Part shown: positions 13,083 through 28,334 of the stretch, piece after piece | How the letters are laid out: each line of letters starts with the position of its first letter | How positions within the stretch are numbered: position 1 is the first letter of the stretch | Virus record (IMG/VR): IMGVR_UViG_3300047548_001122 | Coordinates: 150,238-214,237 of that record | Strand: one strand, 5' to 3' | Length of the DNA: 64,000 bases | Source of the DNA: a virus | Made by a program: the position numbers and the translations under genes | The notes under the pieces: model-generated | Told to the model about the DNA's origin: nothing | The model's input: the letters and a program-made list of their open reading frames with translations, nothing else | Databases searched by the model: none

Positions 13083-14312
13083 ATGAAATTTTTAGACTTT
13101 TTAGTAGAAGCCAAAAATGAAGGCGCAAATCTACACCTAGAACATCTAGAAGATAATATATTTAATTTTGGTGTAAATGGTACTCGACAATCAATTGATT
13201 TTTTAAGATCATTAAGAGATATGTTAGCAGGTCATTCACAATCAAAAGTAAATATTACAACAAAATGGGATGGAGCTCCAGCTGTTATATGTGGAATAAA
13301 TCCTGAAAACGGAAAGTTTTTTGTTGGAACAAAATCTGTTTTCAACAAAGATGGTAAATTAAATTACACCGATGATGATATTGATAAGAATCATCCTGGT
13401 GGGGGATTAAATGAGAAATTAAAAATAGCATTGGCCTTTTTACCAAAACTTGGCATCAAAGGTATATTACAAGGTGATTTGTTATTTACCAAAGGTGATA
13501 TACAATCAGAAACAATTGACGGACAAAAATATATAAAGTTTCAACCAAATACTATTGTGTATGCGGTGCCAACCGATTCAGTTATGGCTAAAAAAATGTT
13601 AGCCTCTCAAATGGGAATAGTTTTTCATACTTCTTATTCAGGAAGAACGATAGATACATTGAAAGCCTCCTTCAATATTGACATTGGAAATTTAACACAA
13701 ACTAAAGACGTTTGGTTCCGAGATGCTTCTTTTGTTGATGCGTCTGGTACTGCAACATTCACCGATAAAGAAACTCAAGCAATAACCTCTCTATTATCTC
13801 AAGCAGGTAGAGTTTTTCAAACCATAAATCCTGTCGTGTTAAATAGAATATCCTCTGGAATATTTAAAGAACAAATTAAGACATTCAATAATACAAAGAT
13901 TAGATCAGGACAAAAAATAACAAATACTGGCCAACATGTTTCAGAATTAATTAAATATATTGAAGATAAACTAAACAAAGAAATACTTGTTGCAAAAAAA
14001 GAAGATACAAAGAAGAAAAGAATTGCCGAAAAGAATGAAGTGATGAGGTTCTATAGAGGAAGTGCCAATCAATTAAAATCTGTTTTTGATTTGATGAACT
14101 TAATAGTTGATGCTAAGTTAATGATAATAAGAAAATTGGAATCAATCAAATCTTCAGTAGATACCTTTGTTAGAACAGAAGATGGTTATAGAGTTACTGG
14201 TCCAGAAGGGTTTGTGGCAGTAGATAGAATAAGTGGTGGTGCATTGAAGTTAGTTGATCGACTAGAATTTAGTCAGACCAACTTTAATGCCGCAAAAAAT
14301 TGGAGCAAATAA
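13083..14312 (+). CDS. Ligase-like nucleotidyltransferase with capsid-targeting-like N-terminus
   Basis: A 409-residue protein with the motif series of the covalent nucleotidyltransferase (RNA/DNA ligase and capping) superfamily: KWDG at 61-64 (motif I, with the Lys that would carry AMP), LQGDLLF at 129-135 (motif III-like), PEGFVAV at 374-380 (motif IV-like) and LKLVDR at 388-393 (motif V-like). Related uncharacterised proteins occur in many T4-like phages. The N-terminus MKFLDFLVEA resembles the T4 internal-protein capsid-targeting peptide MKTYQEFIAEA, with a predicted cleavage after LVE. Expressed with the late gene upstream. Activity and substrate unproven; a catalytically dead member is possible. 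Confidence 0.7.
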   Translation: MKFLDFLVEAKNEGANLHLEHLEDNIFNFGVNGTRQSIDFLRSLRDMLAGHSQSKVNITTKWDGAPAVICGINPENGKFFVGTKSVFNKDGKLNYTDDDIDKNHPGGGLNEKLKIALAFLPKLGIKGILQGDLLFTKGDIQSETIDGQKYIKFQPNTIVYAVPTDSVMAKKMLASQMGIVFHTSYSGRTIDTLKASFNIDIGNLTQTKDVWFRDASFVDASGTATFTDKETQAITSLLSQAGRVFQTINPVVLNRISSGIFKEQIKTFNNTKIRSGQKITNTGQHVSELIKYIEDKLNKEILVAKKEDTKKKRIAEKNEVMRFYRGSANQLKSVFDLMNLIVDAKLMIIRKLESIKSSVDTFVRTEDGYRVTGPEGFVAVDRISGGALKLVDRLEFSQTNFNAAKNWSK

Positions 14313-15266: not shown

Positions 15267-16100
15267 ATGAAAGATTTGATTATAGGATGTTCCACCAACT
15301 ACGATTGGTCTAAGTTAAAATATTGGATCAATTCTATCAATGCATCAGGATTTGAAGGTGATAAAATCCTGATTCTAATGAACTGTGATGCTGAAACAGT
15401 TAAAAAAATTACAGAAGCAGGTTTCGGTGTAATTGGATTCAATCAAGATGAACAAGGTAATTTGAGTTATAGTTCTTCAATGCCTGTCCACACCGAAAGA
15501 TTTTTACACATCTACAATTATTTAAAAGACAGAGACTATCGTTATGTAATCACAACCGATGTTAAAGATGTTGTCTTTCAAAAAAATCCTATCGAATATC
15601 TTGAAGCGGAATGTATTTCTAAAAATCTAATTTTTGCTTCCGAAAGTATCAAGTATAAAGACGAACCTTGGGGTGACCAAAACCTAAAAGAAACTTTTGG
15701 TCCATACATCTACGAACAGTTTAAGAACAATGAAATCTTCAACGTTGGTGTTTTGGCTGGTCACGGCTACGCTATTCGTGATTTAGCTTTGAACATTTTT
15801 GTCGCTAGTTTAAATCGTCCTATTCCAATTTGTGACCAATCTACGTTTAATTTCCTCATTAGTCAAAACCCTTACACCTCATTGAGTAAGTATTGTTTCT
15901 CTGAAGATGGTTGGGCTGCACAACTAGGAACAACAGGTGATCCATCAAAATCTGCACAATTCGATCCTTTGTTACTCGAAGAGAAACCAAAATTTGATGG
16001 TAATATTGTAACTACATCAAAAGGTAAAGAATTCTATATTGTACACCAATATGATAGAGTTCCAGAAATGAAAAAGGTCATTGAGGAAAAATTTGCATGA
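15267..16100 (+). CDS. Putative glycosyltransferase (GT-A-like)
   Basis: A 277-residue protein with a GT-A-type look: N-terminal nucleotide-binding start KDLIIGCSTNYDW, a YRYVITTDVKDVVFQKNP segment (about residues 92-109) whose Asp pair is where the metal-binding DxD motif would be, and later EIFNVGVLAGHG and a CDQSTFNFLI segment, as in bacterial polysaccharide transferases. GGAG lies 10 bases before the ATG. It opens a run of overlapping sugar genes and overlaps the next by four bases. Donor and acceptor unknown. Confidence 0.7.
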   Translation: MKDLIIGCSTNYDWSKLKYWINSINASGFEGDKILILMNCDAETVKKITEAGFGVIGFNQDEQGNLSYSSSMPVHTERFLHIYNYLKDRDYRYVITTDVKDVVFQKNPIEYLEAECISKNLIFASESIKYKDEPWGDQNLKETFGPYIYEQFKNNEIFNVGVLAGHGYAIRDLALNIFVASLNRPIPICDQSTFNFLISQNPYTSLSKYCFSEDGWAAQLGTTGDPSKSAQFDPLLLEEKPKFDGNIVTTSKGKEFYIVHQYDRVPEMKKVIEEKFA

Positions 16101-17053
16101 AACGTCTATTGTTTGTAGTTCATCGTTATGCTCCTTATCCTGGCGGTTCTGAAAATTATGTCAGAGATATGGCCGAAGAATGTGTTCGGAGAGGACATGA
16201 TGTTTCTGTTTTCACTGGCGAACACAAAGGCGATTTGAATGGAGTAAAAGTTACATCAGACGTAAATATTCTAGGTCAAAAGTTTGATCTCATTATCGTT
16301 CATGGCGGCGACGTTGGCTTACAAAATTTAGTATTGATGAACGCAGAAAGAATACCTTCACCAATACTATTCATGATTATAAAACCATCCGAAAGTCCTG
16401 TTTATATTCATGCGATGAACACCGTAAAATACCTAGGATGTTCTGCACCAGAGGATTATGAATTATTGAAAAAACATAATCACATGAATAAGTGTGTTAG
16501 AGTTATTCATGGTATAGATGAAAAGATATCAGTTGGTATGACAGGTTTTAGAGAGAAGTATGGTATAGAAACAAAATATATGTTTTTATCGTGTGGAGGT
16601 TTCTGGCCAAATAAAGCAATGAATGAACTCGCACAAATATTCAATGATATTGGAAGAGATGATGCTACGCTAGTATTAACAGGTTATGATAACAGACATA
16701 ACATTCGTCCAATTGATACGAAATATGTTAAGACATTTATGATAGAAGATAGAGAAGATGTTTTGTCGGCCATTCGTGATGCAGATTTATACATTATGCA
16801 TTCCTTCAGTGAAGGGTTTGGTTTAGTTCTTCTAGAGTCTATGTTAAATAAAACTCCTTGGGCTTCTAGAAAAATTGCTGGTGCTAATTTAATGAGTGAG
16901 TTTGGATTTACATACGAAAATGACCATCAACTTAGAGAATATATTTTAGATTTTGATGGTAATAAAGATGCACAAATAGAAAATGCATATGAGTATGTAA
17001 CATTAAATCATATGATAAAAAATACAGTTGATGATATTATGAGGTTAGTATGA
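16097..17053 (+). CDS. Glycosyltransferase, GT-B fold (GT4-like)
   Basis: A 318-residue GT4-type enzyme. The N-terminus has the HRYAPYPGGSENYVRDMA motif that ends in GG for acceptor binding, and the C-terminal half has the donor-binding HSFSEGFGLVLLESM motif (EGFGxxxLE) near residues 234-248. It would transfer a sugar from a nucleotide donor to a glycan or protein. Length is slightly under the usual 350-400. It overlaps both neighbours by four bases, so the sugar genes are read as one operon. Confidence 0.85.
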   Translation: MKRLLFVVHRYAPYPGGSENYVRDMAEECVRRGHDVSVFTGEHKGDLNGVKVTSDVNILGQKFDLIIVHGGDVGLQNLVLMNAERIPSPILFMIIKPSESPVYIHAMNTVKYLGCSAPEDYELLKKHNHMNKCVRVIHGIDEKISVGMTGFREKYGIETKYMFLSCGGFWPNKAMNELAQIFNDIGRDDATLVLTGYDNRHNIRPIDTKYVKTFMIEDREDVLSAIRDADLYIMHSFSEGFGLVLLESMLNKTPWASRKIAGANLMSEFGFTYENDHQLREYILDFDGNKDAQIENAYEYVTLNHMIKNTVDDIMRLV

Positions 17054-17685
17054 ATTTTACTTTTGGTATTCTTACAAAATACGATGATGAAGAAAAACTA
17101 AAAGAAGTTATAGACTCGATACACAATCTAAACATTCCGGAAAATGGTGGTGATTATCAAGTTTTGGTAATAGGCGAAAAGAAAGTAGAAGGATCAAAAT
17201 ATGAGAGGTACATTTATTTTGATGAAACTGCCAAACCAGCCTGGATAACCAAAAAGAAAAATTTATTGGCTCGTGCCGCAAATTTTCAAAACATTGTTTT
17301 AATGCACGATTACTTTGTTTTTGATAAAGATTGGTATAAAAACTTTTTAGAGTTTGGAAATGATTGGGACATTTGTTCTTGTCCACAATATCTAATAAAC
17401 GGTAAACGACATTTTACCGATTGGGTTTGTTGGGATTCACCTTTATTTCCGAGATATACTTCATTACATTATGATGATTGGTCACATGTGAATTACATGT
17501 ATCAATCTGGCGGTTTCGTTGTTGCAAAAACACAGTTGATTATTGATAATCCATTCAATGAACAATTAGGTTGGGGTCAAGCTGACGATGTTGAATGGTC
17601 TCTCCGAGTGAGACATAGATACAAGTATGTTTGTAATGGAAAAAGTATAGTGAGACATAATAAGGTACATCGTGATGCGAAATAA
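17050..17685 (+). CDS. Putative glycosyltransferase (GT2-like)
   Basis: A 211-residue protein resembling a short GT-A enzyme: FTFGILTKYDDEEKLKEVIDSI start, IVLMHDYFVFDKDWYKNF in the middle (HD in place of DxD) and a GWGQADDVEWSLRV segment (about 179-192), the ED/D-type catalytic region found in GT2 enzymes. Short for a GT2, so it may contain only the catalytic core. Part of the overlapping glycan operon. Confidence 0.7.
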   Translation: MNFTFGILTKYDDEEKLKEVIDSIHNLNIPENGGDYQVLVIGEKKVEGSKYERYIYFDETAKPAWITKKKNLLARAANFQNIVLMHDYFVFDKDWYKNFLEFGNDWDICSCPQYLINGKRHFTDWVCWDSPLFPRYTSLHYDDWSHVNYMYQSGGFVVAKTQLIIDNPFNEQLGWGQADDVEWSLRVRHRYKYVCNGKSIVRHNKVHRDAK

Positions 17686-19045
17686 ATTAATTATATTTGA
17701 CTTAGATGGTGTTTTGATTGAATCTAGAGAATTGCATTATCACGCTCTTAATGATGCATTAAGAAAAGTCGATGAACGTTATGTAATTGACCGAGAAGAA
17801 CACCTCAGTGTTTATGATGGTTTAAACACCACTAGAAAACTTGAAATGTTGACCGAAAGAAAAGGTCTGCCTACGAGTTTCTACGATCAAGTATGGCAAG
17901 ATAAACAGTCAGCAACTTTTGAATTAATCAAACAGTTTCCAAAAAATCCAACCTTAATAGAATTTTTCAGTAGTCTAAAATCGCAAGGTATAAAAGTTGC
18001 CGTTGCAAGTAACTCTATACGTGAAACGGTAAAGCTTGCTTTAATATCTATAGGTGTGTTAGAATATGTAGATTACTTTGTAAGTAATGAGGATGTTAGG
18101 AGACCCAAGCCATATCCAGAGATGTATTGGCAATGCATGACCGTTTTAAATGCATTGCCAAAAACTACAGTTATCTTTGAAGATAGTCACATTGGTAGAG
18201 AGGGTGCTTTAAATTCTGGAGCTCACTTAATTCCATTAAAAGATTCTTTTGATTTGACCAAAGACAAAATAGACGATGCGCTTGATATATTAAATGGAAT
18301 TAAAAAAACAAATATACCATGGAGAAATAAAAAAATGAATGTATTGATACCAATGGCAGGCGCAGGTAGTAGATTTGCTGCAGCAGGTTATACTTTTCCA
18401 AAACCTCTAATCGAAGTTCGTGGAAAACCAATGATTCAGGTTGTTGTGGAAAATCTTAATGTTGAAGCGCACTTCATTTTCATTGTACAAAAAGAACACT
18501 ACGAAAAGTATAATCTAAAACAATTGTTGAATCTTATTGCTCCAGGTTGCGACATAATCCAGGTTGACGGTATAACAGAAGGTGCTGCGTGTACAACATT
18601 ACTCGCAAAAGAACTTATTAATAACGGTGAACCTCTATTGATGGCAAACTCGGATCAATTTGTTGAGTGGAATTCCAATGAGTGTTTATATGCATTTACT
18701 GCTGATACTATCGATGGTGGTATAGTTACTTTTGAAGCCACGCATCCAAAGTGGTCTTTTGCTAAATTGGATGAAAATGGTTTTGTTTCAGAAGTTGCGG
18801 AGAAAAAACCAATCTCGAATATTGCAACGGTAGGAATATATTATTGGAAACAAGGTAGCGATTATGTTAAGTATGCTGAACAGATGATACAGAAAAACAT
18901 TCGTGTCAATAATGAATTCTATGTTTGTCCAGTATTTAATGAAGCAATTGCCGATGGTAAAAAGATAAGAACCAAACATATCGAAAGAATGTGGGGAATA
19001 GGAACACCAGAAGATTTAAATTACTTTTTGGAGAACCATAAATGA
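17675..19045 (+). CDS. HAD phosphatase fused to sugar nucleotidylyltransferase
   Basis: Two enzymes in one chain. Residues 1-210: HAD phosphatase with FDLDGVLIES (motif I), VASNS (motif II), RRPKPYPEMY (motif III) and IFEDSHIG (motif IV). From Met221 on: nucleotidylyltransferase with the signature GAGSRF...FPKPLIEVRGKPMI, a MANSDQF segment (metal site) and a C-terminal GIGTPEDL. Such enzymes make NDP-sugars; a phosphatase plus nucleotidylyltransferase suggests a heptose-like or phosphosugar route. The internal ATG at 18335 has GGAG 10 bases upstream, so the second enzyme may also be made alone. GTG at 17672 is an alternative start. Confidence 0.85.
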   Translation: MRNKLIIFDLDGVLIESRELHYHALNDALRKVDERYVIDREEHLSVYDGLNTTRKLEMLTERKGLPTSFYDQVWQDKQSATFELIKQFPKNPTLIEFFSSLKSQGIKVAVASNSIRETVKLALISIGVLEYVDYFVSNEDVRRPKPYPEMYWQCMTVLNALPKTTVIFEDSHIGREGALNSGAHLIPLKDSFDLTKDKIDDALDILNGIKKTNIPWRNKKMNVLIPMAGAGSRFAAAGYTFPKPLIEVRGKPMIQVVVENLNVEAHFIFIVQKEHYEKYNLKQLLNLIAPGCDIIQVDGITEGAACTTLLAKELINNGEPLLMANSDQFVEWNSNECLYAFTADTIDGGIVTFEATHPKWSFAKLDENGFVSEVAEKKPISNIATVGIYYWKQGSDYVKYAEQMIQKNIRVNNEFYVCPVFNEAIADGKKIRTKHIERMWGIGTPEDLNYFLENHK

Positions 19046-19770
19046 GAGTTGCTGTCGTATTGACCGGACACCTAAGGTGCTGGAAACAAGTGTTTCCGAA
19101 TTTTAAAGAAAAAGTAATTGATCGATATAACCCAGATATATTCATTCATACTTGGGATGAAGAAGGCTGGTGGATACCTGGTGATAAACAAAATGAAAAA
19201 GGTTTCTTTGAGGGTACACCTGAGATTGTAGATCAAGAAGTGATTGATGCTTACAAACCTTTATACTTTGTAAAAGAATATTGGGACGATTTTAATCAAC
19301 ACTTCGAACAGTGTGGAACTTATTTTAAAAACTTCGCACACAGACCAAAAAATATACTTTCGATGTATTATAAAATGCATCAAGGATTTTCTTTGGTTGA
19401 AAAACATCTGGCACAACTACAGGGAAATTATGATCTAGTCATTCGTATGCGACCAGACATGGTTTTTCATGAGGATCTTCCTGATTTTAATATGGGAACT
19501 TTCTATACTATTGCTCACAGAAATCATCTAGGTCAAGGAACTGGAGATTTGATGCAAGTTGGTAGTGTGGGACAAATGTTATTCTTTACAAAAATTATTT
19601 GTTTTATTTCTGAATTATATAAACAAACAGACTTATTATGTCCTCATGTTATAACTGAACAACATATAACAAATTTAAGATTGAACTGGAAAGAATTTAA
19701 TATCAACAAAACTTTAATGCATACGCCGAAGGGTGCTTATGTAGAAATGGATAAAATAAATGCTGAATGA
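19042..19770 (+). CDS. Putative glycosyltransferase-like protein
   Basis: A 242-residue protein beginning MRVAVVLTGHLRCWKQVFPNF and containing YDLVIRMRPDMVF (about residues 130-142). These features occur in a family of uncharacterised capsule or LPS glycosyltransferase-like proteins in bacteria and large viruses. The RPD element is where the nucleotide-sugar site is expected. Function assigned mainly from motif resemblance and its place in the sugar operon; it overlaps neighbours at both ends. Confidence 0.6.
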   Translation: MRVAVVLTGHLRCWKQVFPNFKEKVIDRYNPDIFIHTWDEEGWWIPGDKQNEKGFFEGTPEIVDQEVIDAYKPLYFVKEYWDDFNQHFEQCGTYFKNFAHRPKNILSMYYKMHQGFSLVEKHLAQLQGNYDLVIRMRPDMVFHEDLPDFNMGTFYTIAHRNHLGQGTGDLMQVGSVGQMLFFTKIICFISELYKQTDLLCPHVITEQHITNLRLNWKEFNINKTLMHTPKGAYVEMDKINAE

Positions 19771-20434
19771 AATTTTAAAATTAGATGATGGTCCAATTAA
19801 GTATGAGCCAAGTGGCCGTGGACATATTAAGATGGTGGGACATTCTGTGCCATACAGTATTATGCAAAAAGAATTTGATTTTTTACATAATATCATTGTA
19901 GAAAATAATTTACAAAGAGGTTTCGAATTAGCCACAGCATTCGGTATTTCCGGTACAGCAATAGGCACAGCTTTCAAAAAAACAGGTGGAAAGTTTGTAA
20001 CCATGGATGCGTATATTGAAGAGAAGTATGATAACGCAGGAACGTATGAACATTTCCAAAAAGAAGTTTATGAAAAGTCTGATGGATATAAAAGTGTAAA
20101 TTATCTCATAGATAAATTTGAATTAAGAGATACGATGTTTGCTGAAATTGGTTGGTCTCCAGACGATGTTGACAGTATAGTTGGAAAACATTTCACGGAA
20201 AAATTAGATTTTGTATTTTTGGATGCTGGACATTTTGGCGACCAGATGATTAAAGATATTAAAGAAATAAATAAACACTTAGATGAAAAATTTGTTTTTG
20301 TGTTCCACGATATTTACCCTTGGAGTTGCACACAAGAAGTTCATAATCTGTGTATAGAATTGTTTGGAAAAGATATTGATATTAAACTTCCTTATCCGGA
20401 AGGAGAAAATTTAGGCATAATTTCATGTTTATAA
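19760..20434 (+). CDS. SAM-dependent methyltransferase (class I, Methyltransf_24-like)
   Basis: A 224-residue protein with a Rossmann-type methyltransferase outline: RGFELATAFGISGTAIGTAF at about residues 53-72 (glycine-rich SAM site), FVTMDAY (acidic end of strand 2), LDFVFLDAGHFGDQMIKDI (strand 4, DAGH) and FVFHDIYPW. These elements match the family that methylates sugars or small molecules. In the glycan operon it probably caps or modifies a sugar. It overlaps upstream by 11 bases and downstream by 10. Confidence 0.75.
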   Translation: MLNEILKLDDGPIKYEPSGRGHIKMVGHSVPYSIMQKEFDFLHNIIVENNLQRGFELATAFGISGTAIGTAFKKTGGKFVTMDAYIEEKYDNAGTYEHFQKEVYEKSDGYKSVNYLIDKFELRDTMFAEIGWSPDDVDSIVGKHFTEKLDFVFLDAGHFGDQMIKDIKEINKHLDEKFVFVFHDIYPWSCTQEVHNLCIELFGKDIDIKLPYPEGENLGIISCL

Positions 20435-20889
20435 TTTCACATAGAGCTAATTTAAACGGTCCAGACCCATCAATCGAAAATAAACCTGAATCAATTGTTC
20501 ACGCTATCGATCAGGGATTTTCGGTTGAGGTTGATCTTCGAATGAAAGATCAAAAACTATATTTTGGACATGATGAAGCTCAATATGAAACTGATATTAA
20601 TTTTTTAAAGAAGTACAAACAATATCTATGGATTCATTGTAAAGAAATGGAAACCATGGAGTTTTGTCTTGAACAGGCTCTACACTGTTTCTGGCATAAC
20701 GATGATGATTATACACTGACAAATTACAGATATGTCTGGGCATACCCCGGAAAAGAACCTGTCGGCAAACTAACGATAATGGTGATGCCAGAAAGGCACT
20801 GGAGTCCAGAAGAAACCCTATCAAAAAAACCATTTGGAGTATGCACAGACTACCCTTATGCGTATCAAGATATTATAAATAAGAGATAA
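20425..20889 (+). CDS. Short glycerophosphodiesterase-like protein
   Basis: A 154-residue protein with the GDPD/PI-PLC catalytic pattern: SHRANLNGP with His6-Arg7, the acidic pair in SVEVDLRM (Glu35, Asp37) and GHDEA with His49. These residues correspond to the HR, ExD and H of glycerophosphodiester phosphodiesterases. It is only about 60% of the usual family length, ending after CTDYP, as in short phage and bacterial relatives near capsule genes. It may act on a phosphodiester in a teichoic-like or capsular glycan. Last gene of the glycan operon. Confidence 0.7.
   Translation: MFIISHRANLNGPDPSIENKPESIVHAIDQGFSVEVDLRMKDQKLYFGHDEAQYETDINFLKKYKQYLWIHCKEMETMEFCLEQALHCFWHNDDDYTLTNYRYVWAYPGKEPVGKLTIMVMPERHWSPEETLSKKPFGVCTDYPYAYQDIINKR
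20874..20881 (+). promoter_or_regulatory. Exact T4-type late promoter box (TATAAATA)
   Basis: TATAAATA, the exact T4 late -10 sequence, lies inside the end of the GDPD-like gene and 33 bases before the ATG of the large internal-protein-like gene at 20915. No other promoter is visible there. Confidence 0.6.
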
Positions 20890-20914: not shown

Positions 20915-23659
20915 ATGAAATTTAAAGACTTTCTAACAGAAAAGAAAGAAGTACATGCCGTAATGGCCTTTGGGAGAATGAATCCCATAACTTCTGGCCA
21001 CGAAAAATTAGTCAACGCTGTCAAAAAAGTTGCTGCCAAAGTTGGCGGTTCACATATTATCGCACTATCACATTCTCAAGACCCAAAGAAAAATCCTCTC
21101 ACAGCCGCACAAAAAGTCAAATACGCCAAAGGTGCATTTCCTGGCACAAATTTTGTTGCTGCATCTAAAGACGCACCTACATTCTTTGAACACGCCGAAA
21201 AACTATACAAACAAGGTGTAACACATTTACATATGATTGGTGGTTCTGATCGCGTAGAAGAATATAACAAATTACTTCACAAATATAATGGCACACATAA
21301 AGGTGCTCGTTTCAATTTTAAAACCATCGAAGTACATTCTGCTGGTGAACGTGATCCTGATGCAGATGGCGTCGAAGGAATTTCTGCAAGTAAGATGCGT
21401 GAGGCAGCAAGTAAAGGAGACTTTAATACTTTTAAGAAAGGTGCTCCGTCAACAATGTCAGTCGATCTAATGAAACAAATGTATAAAGATGTACGCAAAG
21501 GTATGAACCTTAAAGAAAGTATTAATGAAGAATTTGAAGAACTTTTGATTGAAGGTGTTCACGACAAAGGTATTTTTAAAGCTGTATTTTTAGCAGGTGG
21601 TCCAGGTTCAGGTAAAGATTATGTATTGAGTAATACACTTGATGGTCATGGTTTAACTGAAATCAATTCTGATAAGGCTTTAGAATTTTTAATGGACAAA
21701 AAAGGTCTCGATAAAAGAATGCCTGCAAGTGAAACGGAAGCTAGAGATAAAGTTAGAGCTAAAGCAAAAAATGTTACAGAGCTTCGTCAAAGACTTGCAT
21801 TACAAGGAAGAAATGGACTAATCATTAATGGTACTGGTGATGATGTTGAAAAAGTAACAAGAATCAAATCTAAGTTGGAAGAATTAGGTTACGACACTTC
21901 AATGATTTTAGTGAATACGAATGATGAAGTATCTGCTCAAAGAAATATTGAACGTGGTCAAAGAGGTGGTCGCACAGTACCAGAAACCATTCGTAAAGAA
22001 AAATGGGACAATGTTCAAAATGCTCGTACTGAATATGCAAAACTTTTTTCTAATAATTATATGGAGTTTGATAACTCCGAAGATTTGAGACAAGCTCCTC
22101 CTGATGTTGTTAAAAGTAAAAAAATGGAGATGATGCAACTGTTTAAAAACGTACAACAGTTTGTTGCACAACCTCCTCAATCACCTGCTGCACAAGAGTG
22201 GGTAGCAAATGAATTAGAACAAAAAGATACTCTTAAACCACCAAAAAATGGTGTTGAACAAGTTGTACCACATGGTTCGAGTGCAGCAGAAGAAGCCAGA
22301 AAATTAGGATTACAATATTATGGTTTCGGTAGATATGGTAAAAACGGAAAAACTACACACCGTTCCATTCATGATAAACTTGTACAAGTTACTGATAAAA
22401 AACCAGAACAACCTAAACTACCTACACCTGGTTCTTCACCAATTTCAAACAAAAAAAATGTTTCAGAAGAAATTAATATTGATGAAGAATTTAACGAAAT
22501 GCTTGATTCTTTAGATGAAGATTTACGTAAATGGTTTGACCCAAAACATCCAGAAGGTGGTTGGAAAAGAATTAACTCTAAAGGTGAAGCTATAGGTCCT
22601 TGCGCTCGTGAACCAGGTGAACCAAAACCAAAATGCATGTCAAACGAAAAGAGAGCTAAGTTGAGTAAACAAGAAAGAGCTTCTGCTGTTGCTGCAAAAC
22701 GCAAACATGATCCTATTGCAGATAGATCGGGTAAAGGTGGTAAACCAGTAAACGTTTCCAATTTTGGAAAAGGTAAATTGTCTGAATCTGTAACAGTTTC
22801 AATTACTGGTGATACTGTTGATGAAGTTAAAGATTTCTTCAACACAATGGGATCAAATTTAAATACAACTACAGAACAATATGCATTATCAGATTCCAAA
22901 AAAGAATTGATAACTCTGGGTAAATTTACTCAACCATTTGGTGAGAAAATGGAAAATACCACCATTACAAATGATATGGTTGAAAATATGCTTGAACAGA
23001 AAGAACCTAATTTACTCAAAGACAAGAGTGGTAAAGTTAGGGTATTCATGTTAAGATCGGTAGCGGCTAAAGAAGCTCATACAAGTCAAGGTACAGTTTT
23101 AAAGTATAAAAACGGTTATGTCGTTAAACTAAAAGAGGAGATTGAAGATGTTGAAGTTTATAAAGGAACTATTCGGAATTGGATTGAAGAATCCAGAAAA
23201 ACATGGATTGGAGGGAGCAACCAGAGCACCCAACGAGGACTTCTCACAGAGAGTGGAACAATATCAAACGGAAGTTCCGAAGGTAGAGGAACCGAAAGTA
23301 GAAGAATTGAAAGTGGAGAAACCAAAGAAGAAACAACCATCCAAGAAGCCTGCGAAAATAACTCCACAACCGCAACCAAAAAAATCACCCTCGCAGAAAT
23401 CAAACAGAGGCAGAAAGCCAAACACCAAAAACAAATCGACGAAATAGATCGAGGTATTGAACCTGGCATATCAATGGCTGGTGCTGGCGAAGGCATCGGC
23501 CGTGATATGGGTGAAAAAATTAAAAAAAGGTCACATAAAGTTACTGTTGTTGAATTAACTGGTGATGAAACAACAGCATCTATTGGTGACCAAAAAGAAG
23601 ATGAGTTAAAGAAAAAAGGTATCTCACTAACTACATTTAAAAAGAGAAACTACATATGA
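20915..23659 (+). CDS. Modular protein: capsid-targeting-like tag, nucleotidyltransferase, P-loop kinase
   Basis: A 914-residue multi-domain protein. Residues 1-9 (MKFKDFLTE) resemble the T4 capsid-targeting peptide. Residues 14-195: HxGH-type nucleotidyltransferase (MAFGRMNPITSGH, then ISASKMR at 156-162), closest in look to NMN/pantetheine-phosphate adenylyltransferases. After an ELLIEG linker, residues 220-390 form a P-loop kinase (GGPGSGKDY at 228-236) resembling zeta-toxin/AAA_33 kinases. Residues 516-620 (DEDLRKWFDPKHPEGGWKR, GPCAREPG, NEKRAKLSKQERASA) are a Cys-containing basic module common in aquatic phage proteins. The rest is basic and less ordered. Nucleotidyltransferase plus kinase recalls NadR. 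Another frame inside residues 745-845 also looks coding. Confidence 0.8.
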   Translation: MKFKDFLTEKKEVHAVMAFGRMNPITSGHEKLVNAVKKVAAKVGGSHIIALSHSQDPKKNPLTAAQKVKYAKGAFPGTNFVAASKDAPTFFEHAEKLYKQGVTHLHMIGGSDRVEEYNKLLHKYNGTHKGARFNFKTIEVHSAGERDPDADGVEGISASKMREAASKGDFNTFKKGAPSTMSVDLMKQMYKDVRKGMNLKESINEEFEELLIEGVHDKGIFKAVFLAGGPGSGKDYVLSNTLDGHGLTEINSDKALEFLMDKKGLDKRMPASETEARDKVRAKAKNVTELRQRLALQGRNGLIINGTGDDVEKVTRIKSKLEELGYDTSMILVNTNDEVSAQRNIERGQRGGRTVPETIRKEKWDNVQNARTEYAKLFSNNYMEFDNSEDLRQAPPDVVKSKKMEMMQLFKNVQQFVAQPPQSPAAQEWVANELEQKDTLKPPKNGVEQVVPHGSSAAEEARKLGLQYYGFGRYGKNGKTTHRSIHDKLVQVTDKKPEQPKLPTPGSSPISNKKNVSEEINIDEEFNEMLDSLDEDLRKWFDPKHPEGGWKRINSKGEAIGPCAREPGEPKPKCMSNEKRAKLSKQERASAVAAKRKHDPIADRSGKGGKPVNVSNFGKGKLSESVTVSITGDTVDEVKDFFNTMGSNLNTTTEQYALSDSKKELITLGKFTQPFGEKMENTTITNDMVENMLEQKEPNLLKDKSGKVRVFMLRSVAAKEAHTSQGTVLKYKNGYVVKLKEEIEDVEVYKGTIRNWIEESRKTWIGGSNQSTQRGLLTESGTISNGSSEGRGTESRRIESGETKEETTIQEACENNSTTATKKITLAEIKQRQKAKHQKQIDEIDRGIEPGISMAGAGEGIGRDMGEKIKKRSHKVTVVELTGDETTASIGDQKEDELKKKGISLTTFKKRNYI
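23148..23447 (+). CDS. Possible overprinted gene inside the large modular protein gene
   Basis: In the +1 frame relative to the 914-residue gene, a 99-residue frame starts with ATG at 23148, with AGAGGAG ending about 9 bases upstream. The product begins MLKFIKELFGIGLKNPEKHG, which looks like a natural amphipathic start, and ends in a Lys/Pro-rich, highly basic tail of repeated VEEPKVEELKVEKPK type. The host frame in this stretch reads as unusual Ser/Thr/Glu-rich sequence, so the alternative frame may be the older one here. Coding is not proven. Confidence 0.45.
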   Translation: MLKFIKELFGIGLKNPEKHGLEGATRAPNEDFSQRVEQYQTEVPKVEEPKVEELKVEKPKKKQPSKKPAKITPQPQPKKSPSQKSNRGRKPNTKNKSTK

Positions 23660-24183
23660 AGTCATTTACTCAATTCATAAACGAAGAAGTTGAAATTCTG
23701 GATGAAATGCCTGGTGCCAATATGGACACCAGAGCGGTTCATCAACATCTGAAAAAACAAGGATGGAAATTAACCAGAAGTTCTGGCAATCATGATGTGT
23801 TTACTCATCCAGATGCTAAACATCACATTCCCGTTCCTCGTCACAAACAATTGAAAGCTCCTTTAGTTCGTGGTATCTTAAAACAAGCTAAAGTAAATGA
23901 AGAAGTTGAATTGGATGAAACTGCTGCATGGCAACGTAAAGAAGGTAAAAATCCTGAAGGTGGATTAAACCGTAAAGGTATCGAATCGTATCGCCGTGAA
24001 AATCCTGGTTCTAAACTATCGATGGCTGTAACTACTCCTCCATCAAAACTAAAACCAGGTTCAAAGGCTGCAAAGAGAAGAAAATCCTTTTGTGCAAGAA
24101 TGGGTGGTATGCCTGGTCCAATGAAGGATGAAAAAGGTCGTCCAACAAGAAAAGCATTATCTTTGCGTAAATGGAACTGCTAA
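23656..24183 (+). CDS. HicA-like domain protein with capsid-targeting-like N-terminus
   Basis: A 175-residue, three-part protein. Residues 1-18: MKSFTQFINEEVEILDE, like the T4 capsid-targeting peptide, ending in a possible LxE cleavage site. Residues 25-78: HicA mRNA-interferase-like double-stranded-RNA-binding fold, with HLKKQGWKLTRSSGNHDVF (catalytic His in GNH), HHIPVPRHKQLKAPLVRGILKQA. A VELDE linker follows (near 83-88). Residues 90-175: AWQRKEGKNPEGGLNRKG and KRRKSFCARMGG modules known from phage hypothetical proteins (DUF6321-like). No HicB antitoxin is nearby. ATGA overlap links it to the 914-residue gene. Confidence 0.75.
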   Translation: MKSFTQFINEEVEILDEMPGANMDTRAVHQHLKKQGWKLTRSSGNHDVFTHPDAKHHIPVPRHKQLKAPLVRGILKQAKVNEEVELDETAAWQRKEGKNPEGGLNRKGIESYRRENPGSKLSMAVTTPPSKLKPGSKAAKRRKSFCARMGGMPGPMKDEKGRPTRKALSLRKWNC

Positions 24184-25482
24184 ATGGCACAGTTTAGAAC
24201 CGACAAAAACATTATCGATTCGGGTCAAGTATTTACTCGATATGAGATAATGATGTTATCTGATAGGCTGACACCATCTGGTACAGCCACAGATGCGTTC
24301 GGTCGTTTACGTGTTGCTGAACCACATACTCTTTTTGATTCACAACATCAAGACGTTGAAAATGATAAATGGGATACACTCATTACAGGTTCGGGCACCA
24401 AAACACATTTACCAAATGAATCTGTAATTGCTTTAGAAATTGGTACTGCAAATAACGATGGTATTATTCGTGAAACACTAAGAACAATGCCATACCAACC
24501 AGGCAAATCATTGTTGATTATGAGCACATTTGCTATGGGACAACCAAAAGCGAACGTTGTTCAGAGAGTAGGATATTATGGAGCAAATAACGGAATTTAT
24601 TTTGAAAACGATTCTGGAAATAACTATGTTGTATTAAGAAGTTCTGTTACAGGAAATGTTGTAGAAACTAGAGTTGCACAAACAAATTGGAATGTGGATA
24701 AATTTGATGGTACGGGATATTCGAGTCAGGGAACAGGACCAGAACACGTTGATGGAATAAATGTAAACAAATCAAATCTTTTTTGGATTGATATTGAATG
24801 GCTAGGCGTTGGTGATGTTCGATGTGGTTTTTTGAATGACGGCCTATTAAAAACTGCACACATATTTCATAACGACAATAAAAACAATACAACTTATATG
24901 CGTAGTGCAATTCAACCATTGCGATATGAAATATTTAACAAAGGTGTTACAACATCAAATACGCTGATGCGTCAAATTTGTTCTACAGTCATATCCGAAG
25001 GTGGTTATACACAAATTAATCAATCAAGGTCAGCATCAAATCCTTTGGCTGGTAAAAACTTAACTGTTAGTATTAATAACCCAATGGTAAGCCTTCGGTT
25101 AAAAAATGGTAGAACAAATGCTGTCGTTGTACCTGTTGCAATTGATATGTATGGATTACAAGCAACAGCATTTAAATATAGAGTGTATGAGAATGTCACA
25201 AGTTTAACCGGTCCATCATGGGTTACAACCGACGCCGCAAGTGCAGTTGAGTATGATATATCGGCAACGGCAATGACTGGTGGAACTTTACTTAAAGAAG
25301 GTATTTTCAAAGGATTAGAAGTTGCAAAAGAAGTTAATTTGTTACAACTATTAGATGGTGTTATACAACTAACAAGAAAAATAAATGCAAACACTGGCGA
25401 CATATTCACGGTTGCAATAGAACCAACAACAAACAACGATGATGCTATCGTAGCATTATCATGGCAAGAACACATTAATTAA
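24184..25482 (+). CDS. Putative virion structural protein
   Basis: A 432-residue protein, rich in Asn/Thr/Gly and beta-strand-like sequence, beginning MAQFRTDKNIIDSGQVFTRYE. I recognise no catalytic motif. Composition, size, lack of signal peptide and place between internal-protein-like genes suggest a capsid or tail component; proteins of this style occur in aquatic T4-like phages. The ATG follows the previous stop directly (TAAATG). No promoter visible between them. Confidence 0.6.
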   Translation: MAQFRTDKNIIDSGQVFTRYEIMMLSDRLTPSGTATDAFGRLRVAEPHTLFDSQHQDVENDKWDTLITGSGTKTHLPNESVIALEIGTANNDGIIRETLRTMPYQPGKSLLIMSTFAMGQPKANVVQRVGYYGANNGIYFENDSGNNYVVLRSSVTGNVVETRVAQTNWNVDKFDGTGYSSQGTGPEHVDGINVNKSNLFWIDIEWLGVGDVRCGFLNDGLLKTAHIFHNDNKNNTTYMRSAIQPLRYEIFNKGVTTSNTLMRQICSTVISEGGYTQINQSRSASNPLAGKNLTVSINNPMVSLRLKNGRTNAVVVPVAIDMYGLQATAFKYRVYENVTSLTGPSWVTTDAASAVEYDISATAMTGGTLLKEGIFKGLEVAKEVNLLQLLDGVIQLTRKINANTGDIFTVAIEPTTNNDDAIVALSWQEHIN

Positions 25483-25497
25483 AAATAGGAGACTCAA

Positions 25498-26904
25498 ATG
25501 TTTCAAGACAAACTAACAAGAGAAATTGCTGCAGCTGCTGCACAAATCAAAACAGAACCACCAAAGAATGAAGTTAATTCTGAGTCTGTTGAGGGTGCAG
25601 TCGTTTCTGTTATGACGAATGAAGAACTAAAAGGCAATCAACACAAGATTGATGCTAACAAAAACGGCAAAGTTGATGCACATGACTTTAAACTTCTTCG
25701 TGCCAAGAAAGGTAAAACGGTAGAAGAAGGCATTAAAGGTGCTGGTATAGGTGCTGCTGTAGGTTCTGTTGCTGGTGGACCGATTGGTGCAGCAGTTGGT
25801 GGTGCTTTGGGGCATGTAGCAGGTGAAGTTCTATCAAGTGCTAAGAATAAAACAAAAGCTATGTATCGTATTGCAAAAGGTCCTTCGATGGCCGACAGCA
25901 AAATAAAGAAAGAAGAAGTTGAAGAACTCGATGAATTGTTTGGAAAAGGTAAATTACCAGCAATTGCAGCATATCACAAAGAAAAAGGTGCTGAAGCTAA
26001 AGGTAAGATGGAAACAATTAGAAGTGGTAACACTAAACTTCCTGTTCCAAAATCTACATCTGCTAAAATCTTTTCTAAAGATGCTGAAGCTAAATATCAT
26101 TCAACTCAGGAGAAAAGAGCAAAATCTTTGATGAAAAAAGAAGAAGTTGAATCCGTTGAAGAGGGATTTGGTGATCTAGTTAAAGGTATTAAACGTGTCG
26201 TTGCCGGTAAAAAGAGTCCTAGTGCCGTAAGAGATGCACACTTAGCAAAATCTGCTTTTAGTACAGATCCGAAAGTTAAAGAGCGTGAAGGTCGCCGTTA
26301 CGATAAAGTGGATAACTTCATGATGAAAAAAGAAGAAACGGAATTGGATGAAGCCTTTCCAACTGTAGCTGATGCTAGAAAACGTATGGCTGCAAAAGAA
26401 AGTGGTTTCGAGAAAAAGAAAATTTCTACTGGTACAGTTTACTCACGTAAGTATAAGGCAGAACCAGAAGAGAATGATGAAGCGCCAAAGAAAAAGGCCA
26501 AGACCATGAAAGAAATGTTGAGTATCTATTCAGCAGGTGGCGCCGAAGCTTTGGTAGAAAATCTCATGATCGAAGAACCATCACAAGATGAATATAAAAA
26601 GGAAGTTGAAACTGCTCAGGCAAAAGCTGACGGTAAAATTCGTAACGATAAAGGTATAGCTAAAGCAGCATCACAGGGTGTAAAGATGGAAGAAGTTGAA
26701 ATTGAAGTTCTTGATGCAGATGAAATCAATGGAGTTCAGATTGACAATATTGAAGAGCGCCACATGACTGATGCTGAAATGGATAAACGTGAAGAAATCG
26801 TTAAGTCAATGAAAAAAGGTATTCAAGGTTTCAAAGATCGTTATGGCGATAAAGCAAAAAATGTAATGTATGCTACTGCAACCAAATTGTCCAAAAAGGA
26901 TTAA
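25498..26904 (+). CDS. Modular internal-type protein with EF-hand loop, glycine zipper and VEELDE linkers
   Basis: A 468-residue, Lys/Glu/Ala-rich protein. Residues 52-63 form a calcium-binding-type loop (DANKNGKVDAHD), followed by LLRAKKGK. Residues 81-109 are a glycine zipper (GAGIGAAVGS repeated) able to insert in a membrane. Then short modules are separated by near-identical linkers: KKEEVEELDE (137-146), KKEEVESVEE (213-222), KKEETELDE (277-285) and MEEVEIEVLDADE (397-409). LxE ends resemble T4 prohead-protease sites. The C-terminal KAKNVMYATATKL is a common phage element. Strong GGAG upstream. Likely a virion protein processed in the capsid. Confidence 0.7.
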   Translation: MFQDKLTREIAAAAAQIKTEPPKNEVNSESVEGAVVSVMTNEELKGNQHKIDANKNGKVDAHDFKLLRAKKGKTVEEGIKGAGIGAAVGSVAGGPIGAAVGGALGHVAGEVLSSAKNKTKAMYRIAKGPSMADSKIKKEEVEELDELFGKGKLPAIAAYHKEKGAEAKGKMETIRSGNTKLPVPKSTSAKIFSKDAEAKYHSTQEKRAKSLMKKEEVESVEEGFGDLVKGIKRVVAGKKSPSAVRDAHLAKSAFSTDPKVKEREGRRYDKVDNFMMKKEETELDEAFPTVADARKRMAAKESGFEKKKISTGTVYSRKYKAEPEENDEAPKKKAKTMKEMLSIYSAGGAEALVENLMIEEPSQDEYKKEVETAQAKADGKIRNDKGIAKAASQGVKMEEVEIEVLDADEINGVQIDNIEERHMTDAEMDKREEIVKSMKKGIQGFKDRYGDKAKNVMYATATKLSKKD

Positions 26905-26906
26905 AC

Positions 26907-28334
26907 ATGAAGAAGATGTCTGACGTTTTCAAATCCATTCGTTTTGCCAAAATGGACCCAAAACACGATAAGCCCGAAATTGGTGGTTCGAAAGATGACG
27001 AGGAACATTATACTGTTGGTGAAAAGGAATATGAACAACAGGTAAAACATGTAAAAAAGCGTGCTATGCAAGAAGAAAAGAAAGACAAATATGATGAAGG
27101 TGAATATGACCGAGAAGGCGATATGGCTAAATCTGATCTTCGTTCTATCATTGCAAATGCAAAAAGATTGCATGATATGATCGAAGATTCGGCTAACCTT
27201 CCTGAATGGGTGCAGTCTAAAATTACTGTTGCTGAAGATTATATTTCTACAGTTGCTAATTATATGACATCAGAAATGAGTGAAGGGGTATCTGATAAGT
27301 TGTACAAATCTCATCAAGATTTGCGTAAGAAGAGTGGGTTACCTCATCCCGATTACTACAAAGCATTAGGTAAATCTTATGACATTGAAGATGATAAAGA
27401 ACGCCTTACACATCAATCTGAATTAAAGAAAAAATATGGTGTGAAAGAAGAGGTTGAACTTGAAGAGTCCTCTAAATTTGCAAAAATTTTTGATAAGAGA
27501 GTCAAACAAAGAGAACTCAATAAATTACCTAAAGAACCAAAAGGTGAATATGAACGTAAAGTGGACAAGTATTTGAAGAAGAAATATAACAAAGAAGAAG
27601 TTGAACTTCAAGAAGGTCGTCCATCACAACGCCATCCATTAGAGGGTCATGAGTATCACAAAAAGTCTAATGAAGAATTGATTGGTATTGCTAAAGATGC
27701 ACATGCGGCTGCTGAAGCAATGAAGGGTCACAGTACCAGAGCAGAAAACAAATATCGTGACCAAGCAAATGATTCTGCAACAGTACGTTATTTCCGACAA
27801 AAGAGTGGTATGCCTGACTGGTACAAAAAGAAGTATGGTCATGTCAAAGAAGGAGTAGAACTTGAAGAGGGTTTACAACAAACTCTTAGAAAAGTTGTTC
27901 CTGGTTATGCAAAGAAACAAATAAACGATAAAATGGACCGTGAAAAGTTTGGTAGAAGAGATGTGGATAAAGACGAGAATTATTATCGTTATAAAAAAGT
28001 CCTCGACAAATTAAAAAAAGAAGATGTTGAACAATTAGAAGAAAAGAATGTTCCAACTTCTCCAGAAAAATGGGCTCAAGCCAAAGCACAAGCAAAGGCC
28101 AAGTTTGACGTTTATCCTTCTGCCTATGCAAATGGTTGGGCTGCAAAGAAATATAAAGCAATGGGTGGTGGTTGGAAATCAGTCAGTGAAGAATCTATTT
28201 TAGAGTCTCGTAAGGCTGAAATTGTCAAAAAGATAGTTAAGAGTAAAAAAACTAATAGTGATGATAAATTTGAACCTAACCCTATCATGTCGAAAGATGA
28301 AGATAGGGGCAGAGATAACATAAATAACAAGTAA
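26907..28334 (+). CDS. Modular internal-type protein with repeated VELEE linkers
   Basis: A 475-residue, highly charged protein built of modules joined by repeated linkers: VKEEVELEE (179-187), NKEEVELQE (228-236), VKEGVELEE (313-321) and KKEDVEQLEE (370-379). The N-terminal module (about 65-124, DMAKSDLRSIIANAKRLHDMI onward) and the module at 383-424 (SPEKWAQAKAQAKAKF, FDVYPSAYANGWAAKKYK) recur in proteins of aquatic phages. No enzyme motif seen. Starts two bases after the previous gene and is clearly related to it in style. Candidate polyprotein cleaved at LxE sites. Confidence 0.7.
   Translation: MKKMSDVFKSIRFAKMDPKHDKPEIGGSKDDEEHYTVGEKEYEQQVKHVKKRAMQEEKKDKYDEGEYDREGDMAKSDLRSIIANAKRLHDMIEDSANLPEWVQSKITVAEDYISTVANYMTSEMSEGVSDKLYKSHQDLRKKSGLPHPDYYKALGKSYDIEDDKERLTHQSELKKKYGVKEEVELEESSKFAKIFDKRVKQRELNKLPKEPKGEYERKVDKYLKKKYNKEEVELQEGRPSQRHPLEGHEYHKKSNEELIGIAKDAHAAAEAMKGHSTRAENKYRDQANDSATVRYFRQKSGMPDWYKKKYGHVKEGVELEEGLQQTLRKVVPGYAKKQINDKMDREKFGRRDVDKDENYYRYKKVLDKLKKEDVEQLEEKNVPTSPEKWAQAKAQAKAKFDVYPSAYANGWAAKKYKAMGGGWKSVSEESILESRKAEIVKKIVKSKKTNSDDKFEPNPIMSKDEDRGRDNINNK
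28320..28326 (+). promoter_or_regulatory. Possible late promoter box (ATAAATA)
   Basis: CATAAATAAC lies at the extreme 3' end of the preceding gene and 32 bases before the ATG at 28359, the same spacing as the TATAAATA box before 20915. Weaker match to the T4 late box, so only a candidate. Confidence 0.35.

Follow-up and report, generated by a model that had tools for sequence, protein, structure and literature searches.

A HicA domain between predicted head-protease sites in a viral protein built like a T4 internal protein

A genuine HicA domain in a tagged, three-part protein

We analyzed a 64,000-nt stretch (the window) of a T4-like virus, positions 150,238 to 214,237 of the 214,237-bp IMG/VR record IMGVR_UViG_3300047548_001122. 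The open reading frame (ORF) at 23656-24183 (+) contains a genuine HicA domain. It falls in the HicA domain family, not among HicAB systems, and is built like an internal head protein of phage T4. The protein is likely to be cargo packaged in the phage head. Coordinates are window positions unless prefixed by G000 or a locus name.

The ORF runs from ATG to TAA and encodes 175 aa; its start overlaps the upstream stop by 4 nt. Three parts can be distinguished: a 17-residue acidic tag, the HicA domain and a C-terminal DUF6321. In the features below, and throughout, a slash within a sequence marks a predicted cut or junction.

23656..23706 (+), capsid-targeting-type tag MKSFTQFINEEVEILDE, aa 1-17, ending in the predicted gp21 cut ILDE/M
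23698..23706 (+), predicted cut site 1, L15-D16-E17, an L/I-x-E directly before the module
23707..23919 (+), HicA module between the predicted cuts, aa 18-88, 8.1 kDa, pI 9.8
23737-23892 (+), Pfam HicA core (PF07927), aa 28-79
23785..23793 (+), Gly44-Asn45-His46, aligned to Burkholderia pseudomallei HicA Gly22-Ser23-His24
23911..23919 (+), predicted cut site 2, L86-D87-E88 (VELDE ends at 88), read from the sequence and lying in the disordered segment 82-97
23920..24183 (+), DUF6321 module (PF19846), aa 89-175 plus stop, pI 11.1

Pfam HicA_toxin (PF07927) matched residues 28-79 with 49.7 bits (E 3.9e-13, cutoff 27), and the PHROGs family phrog_353, 'toxin', matched the same part (E 4e-16). Sequence matches in the PDB were weak, and every one was HicA or HicA-like. 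An AlphaFold model of the module, based on 33 module sequences, gave an alpha-beta-beta-beta-alpha arrangement (pLDDT 83). Foldseek ranks 1-6 for this model were all HicA or HicA-like chains, the best being B. pseudomallei HicA (6g26; TM 0.78, rmsd 1.0 Å). The HicA fold claimed by an earlier sequence-only reading of this DNA is thus supported both by a Pfam score above cutoff and by the top six structural matches. That reading had also recognized the tag and the flanking cuts; it overlooked DUF6321, which matched residues 97-173 with 82.5 bits (Pfam cutoff 28.5), and the surrounding operon of tagged or linker-bearing proteins.

HicA has a dsRBD-like fold, and toxicity of the B. pseudomallei protein depends on Gly22 and His24 but not on Ser23 (PMC3969222). 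The solved chain bears H24A, as seen in our alignment. The corresponding Gly44 and His46, the latter already singled out in the sequence-only reading, are present here and invariant across 33 distinct modules, as is PRHxQLKAPL (x = K or R). Median dN/dS for the module was 0.17 over 203 pairs, indicative of purifying selection that maintains the domain. At pI 11.2 and a net charge of +9, the core of the module is strongly basic. The module could be an active RNase, with a probability that we place slightly short of even.

Searches with the HicB families PF15919 and PF05534 found no match in the 214,237-bp record, although a diverged antitoxin outside both families is possible, and none above cutoff in the records of seven relatives. 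The HicA domain is present in a single copy in the record, and the adjoining genes encode not HicB but a 914-aa tagged protein and a virion structural protein. The absence of a neighboring HicB, noted before, therefore extends to the rest of the record. This HicA shares its Pfam family, fold and Gly-x-His with the HicA of HicAB type II toxin-antitoxin systems, yet differs in having no HicB in the record and in being fused to a tag and DUF6321. A 2024 survey lists 14 contexts for HicA (PMC10865869); the head-protein setting seen here is absent from that list.

Tag, predicted cut sites and head protease

In T4, internal proteins carry N-terminal tags of 10-19 residues that pull them into the head and are then removed, and the protease gp21 cleaves after L/I-x-E (PMC9026906). 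At 17 residues and ending in ILDE, the tag here falls within this rule and has the same look as the T4 capsid-targeting sequences, in agreement with its first description as capsid-targeting-like. Orthologues carry MKTFKAFISEEVELLDE and MKSFKQHLEE in its place. Both predicted cut sites lie in segments with pLDDT below 50 (1-18 and 82-97), predicted to be disordered. A helix at residues 4-17 of the tag appears with low confidence in the full-length AlphaFold model, which was built from only four sequences (pLDDT 65).

The same record encodes a gp21 head protease (PF03420, 118.8 bits; phrog_207, E 1e-72), together with gp22 (PF25623), gp23 (PF07068) and gp67/gp68-like core genes. Its gp23 shares 64% identity with major capsid proteins of cyanophages and contains QQLTE/ATPTN near the expected end of the propeptide, presumably the point at which gp23 is cut.

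L/I-x-E motifs bound a movable cassette

Two scans of viral contigs with the HicA module yielded 50, then 61 loci. In these 61 contigs, the module sits in proteins of 155-1431 aa, most of which have many modules. Upstream of it we distinguished 36 contexts, which form 26 clusters of unlike partners; downstream there were 18 clusters. An [LI]xE motif ended exactly at the first residue of the module in 35 of the 36 contexts and in 25 of the 26 partner clusters. Shuffling the last eight residues of each context gave an expectation of 2.9, and the per-position background was 1.3%. A binomial p is unsuited to related contexts such as these, and the evidence used is that from partner clusters and shuffles. 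In the first locus set, L/I-x-E occurred at no module position from 1 to 64 and returned at offsets 65-76, just past the HicA core.

Other modules were likewise preceded by L/I-x-E: KFDVYPSAYANGW in 20/20 cases, GRPSQRHPLEG in 15/17, AKDxxEY in 13/14 and LSxxTLxSY in 6/6. Two more module anchors gave a mixed outcome. Leucine at P3 was encoded by all six codons (isoleucine took its place in six cases), glutamate at P1 by both codons, and EEVEQLDE was found in eight DNA spellings. Since the codons vary at P3 and P1, it is the amino-acid pattern that is selected, not the DNA. At locus L050, the protein is short and opens with HicA; its start codon stands at the residue where the other proteins would be cut.

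In relatives, the slot occupied by our ORF holds tag-[CWPGYKP]-DUF6321, tag-[CWPGYKP]-[GLWANIRAKRARG]-DUF6321, tag-[CWPGHKP]-HicA-DUF6321 or tag-HicA-[CWSGYKP]-DUF6321, and nearly all junctions in these genes are L/I-x-E or a close variant. In several of these phages, the HicA cassette sits instead in a multi-module gene ~3 kb downstream. The HicA domain thus belongs, as a single cassette, to a larger family of shuffled modules with protease-type punctuation. The sequence-only reading, supported on domain, tag and cut motifs, did not see this wider family.

A 271-aa protein outside the window (G000:127802-128617), encoded between gp67 and gp68, has linkers of the EEVQLEE type and a TSDYKIGPSGRKIRAH module that also occurs in the HicA-bearing protein of locus L019. 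Through this module and these linkers, the cassette family is connected with the head-core cluster.

We also considered whether DUF6321 always follows L/I-x-E. It does not: only 25 of 65 sampled contexts have the motif, and several of the others are short ORFs starting near the module. Such ORFs, of ~90 aa (MAKTPAWQRKE and similar starts), occur at L174, L187, L189, L192 and other loci, and DUF6321 is also found in small podophage-sized pelagiphage genomes. At aa 873-1027, the 1431-aa HicA-bearing protein at L021:4830-9125 weakly resembles Intein_splicing (E 6e-4), with a score under the cutoff. Among GTDB genome contigs, the module alignment found no relative, and hence no candidate host or cellular source. 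A tblastn search of annotated phages with residues 1-90 gave only weak HicA matches, mostly in unrelated phages, and the tag in none.

Modular relatives in virions

Related proteins have been detected in virions. In the mass-spectrometry proteome of Synechococcus phage S-CREM2, ORF160 was identified by seven unique peptides (PMC10665884, Table 3). We find that ORF160 is modular and built of the same cassettes, with junctions including ENLEE/KKNCW and TEISE/GKKDA. It aligns with the HicA-bearing L086 protein over 194 aa outside the HicA part (E 2e-13), and with the 914-aa protein of the window (E 1.5e-8). S-CREM2 ORF154, found in virions by three peptides (PMC10665884), is a cytidylyltransferase with the tag MKNFSSFLTEA, homologous to that of the 914-aa protein. 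In S-SCSM1, gp029 is a DUF6321 protein labelled 'virion protein', a label in line with the published proteome as far as the accessible part of that report goes (PMC9602691); the same paper describes NMNAT-like proteins as recurrent in cyanophage virions. A cytidylyltransferase was also detected in S-SM1 virions (PMC3037559).

S-CREM2 ORF160, S-SCSM1 gp029 and DUF6321 proteins resemble our protein in shared cassettes, C-terminal DUF6321 and reported presence in virions, whereas ORF160 and gp029 are without the HicA module. In the accessible portions of earlier reports, cyanophage modular virion proteins are listed as hypothetical or 'virion protein', without modular description. The HicA fold and key residues, the lack of a recognizable HicB, the tag and the cuts predicted on either side of HicA, at LDE and VELDE, now have comparative statistics behind them, together with mass spectrometry of virions for modular homologues. 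From these homologues and from T4, we infer virion presence, cleavage and injection of the HicA protein. Cleavage of the precursor at the E17 and E88 sites is likely, and injection of the products into the host is probable.

A proposed route into the host, and alternatives

In the route that we propose, a T4-type internal head protein is made, probably late, as the precursor encoded by the ORF. The tag at its N terminus would draw it into the prohead core, where gp21 would cleave after ILDE17 and VELDE88 and cut free two basic pieces, the HicA module (from Met18) and the DUF6321 module. Both would stay with the DNA inside the head and pass into the next host, where the HicA module, with Gly44 and His46 kept, may act on RNA upon entry, most likely by cutting host transcripts; the outcome could be general shut-off, or the disarming of an RNA-dependent defence. 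RNase action and the RNA target are proposals drawn from the sequence. Taken as a whole, the chain from packaging through protease release to an injected HicA-type effector is our preferred reading, with a probability slightly short of even. A broader version is more tentative still: host-acting cassettes, HicA included, may be strung together by T4-like phages of this group into shuffled 'polyproteins', which would be taken up by the head, divided by its protease into separate effectors and co-injected, with HicA serving as an antitoxin-free RNase that attacks the new host at entry.

T4 IPI, IPII, IPIII and Alt share with this protein a short N-terminal tag, an L/I-x-E cut, a gp21-type protease and basic cargo (PMC9026906). 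Unlike them, the precursor here carries a pair of cargo modules that a further predicted cut would separate, and relatives have many; one cargo module is HicA; and the protein is known from sequence, not from virions. Protease-processed head proteins of phiKZ and SPN3US are also ejected into the host and have propeptides removed; the accessible part of that source does not report shuffled multi-cargo arrays (PMC5694885).

Several observations weigh against the proposed route. The main difficulty lies in the producing cell, which would be exposed to an RNase with no antitoxin. It could tolerate this if the precursor masked the activity, if the module were quickly sequestered or if its target were narrow; any one of these would suffice. 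The HicA family includes members without demonstrated activity. Virion proteomics covers modular homologues rather than HicA-bearing members, and the cut sites in this group are predicted ones. Evidence for a late promoter is one octamer. L031 has VEE before HicA, the sole exception among the 36 contexts; L/I-x-E precedes DUF6321 in just the 25/65 contexts given above, and S-SCSM1 has QVSE there.

The main rival explanation, raised by the sequence-only reading as an RNA-binding module without activity, keeps the delivery and drops the catalysis: the HicA fold would be a basic nucleic-acid-binding head module that condenses DNA in the head or binds host RNA after entry. We regard this as a serious minority possibility. 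The module core is strongly basic, like the DUF6321 piece; other cassettes are small and basic, with functions that are not known; and a dsRBD-like fold (PMC3969222) suits such a role. However, the Gly and His needed for toxicity, together with PRHxQLKAPL, are invariant in 33 modules, and binding alone need not preserve Gly/His. An unlikely alternative is that the L/I-x-E linkers are only recombination or flexible-linker sequence in a multi-domain protein that is never cut. Repetitive acidic linkers would favor recombination, and exceptions to the motif exist. Yet L/I and E stay while the leucine codons (all six) and the rest of the linker vary, composition alone gives ~3/36, the phage encodes a gp21 of this known kind of specificity, and translation at L050 starts at the same residue.

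Less probable again is that the protein is not head cargo at all but a free intracellular toxin, or an orphan toxin-antitoxin remnant, acting in the producing cell. Free HicA genes do occur in phages, which even carry HicAB pairs (PMC10865869). Against this stand the tag, the flanking cuts, the operon with virion-type proteins, the detection of modular homologues in virions and the lack of HicB in the record; in none of the loci examined is the module paired with HicB. We give least credence to an injected decoy that binds the antitoxin of a host HicAB (or related defence) system, or RNA targets, without cutting RNA. HicA domains have been linked to anti-phage contexts (PMC10865869) and T4 injects IPI to counter host defence (PMC9026906), but titration of HicB seems self-defeating, since it would release the HicA of the host.

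None of HicA, DUF6321, capsid-targeting tags or gp21 processing is new. Among open-access papers, the only ones covered, we found none that names DUF6321, places HicA in phage proteins targeted to the head or describes cassette arrays cut by a head protease; these negatives are weak evidence of absence. Phage-injected proteins are mostly uncharacterized and hard to recognize, and a HicA domain in what looks like a phage-head precursor suggests a possible route for shipping toxin-like proteins into hosts. If L/I-x-E-punctuated cassette arrays do mark injected proteins, these could be read from sequence in many aquatic T4-like phages, and a toxin-antitoxin domain would have been turned from bacterial self-toxin into phage cargo. 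This raises the question of how the late expression of a phage would escape harm from an RNase that it makes with no antitoxin.

The surrounding operon

The HicA ORF lies in an operon with further tagged or linker-bearing proteins:

20874..20881 (+), T4-type late promoter octamer TATAAATA, 34 nt upstream of the operon's first gene
20915..23659 (+), upstream gene, 914 aa, with tag MKFKDFLTE, a cytidylyltransferase/NMNAT-like domain, a Zeta_toxin-type kinase and more modules
24184..25482 (+), downstream gene, virion structural protein (phrog_1645, E 2e-102)
25498..26904 (+), multi-module protein with linkers EEVEELDE and EETELDE
26907..28334 (+), multi-module protein with linkers EEVELEE, EEVELQE and EDVEQLEE, and cassettes in common with HicA-bearing relatives

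The octamer has three exact matches in the window, versus 8.3 expected by chance, and as a late promoter of the operon it is suggestive only. Another toxin-like domain, Zeta_toxin (PF06414, 46.8 bits, aa 222-370), is present in the 914-aa neighbor, where it begins right after LLIE/G, behind the tagged cytidylyltransferase domain. This pairing of cytidylyltransferase and Zeta_toxin was seen again at L001 and L132. Further upstream, 13083-14312 (+) encodes a DUF6267 protein (380 bits) with an N-terminal tag of the same kind, MKFLDFLVEAKNE. Between the replication genes and the operon, at 15267-20889 (+), the N-termini of the genes suggest enzymes of glycosyltransferase or sugar-modification type.
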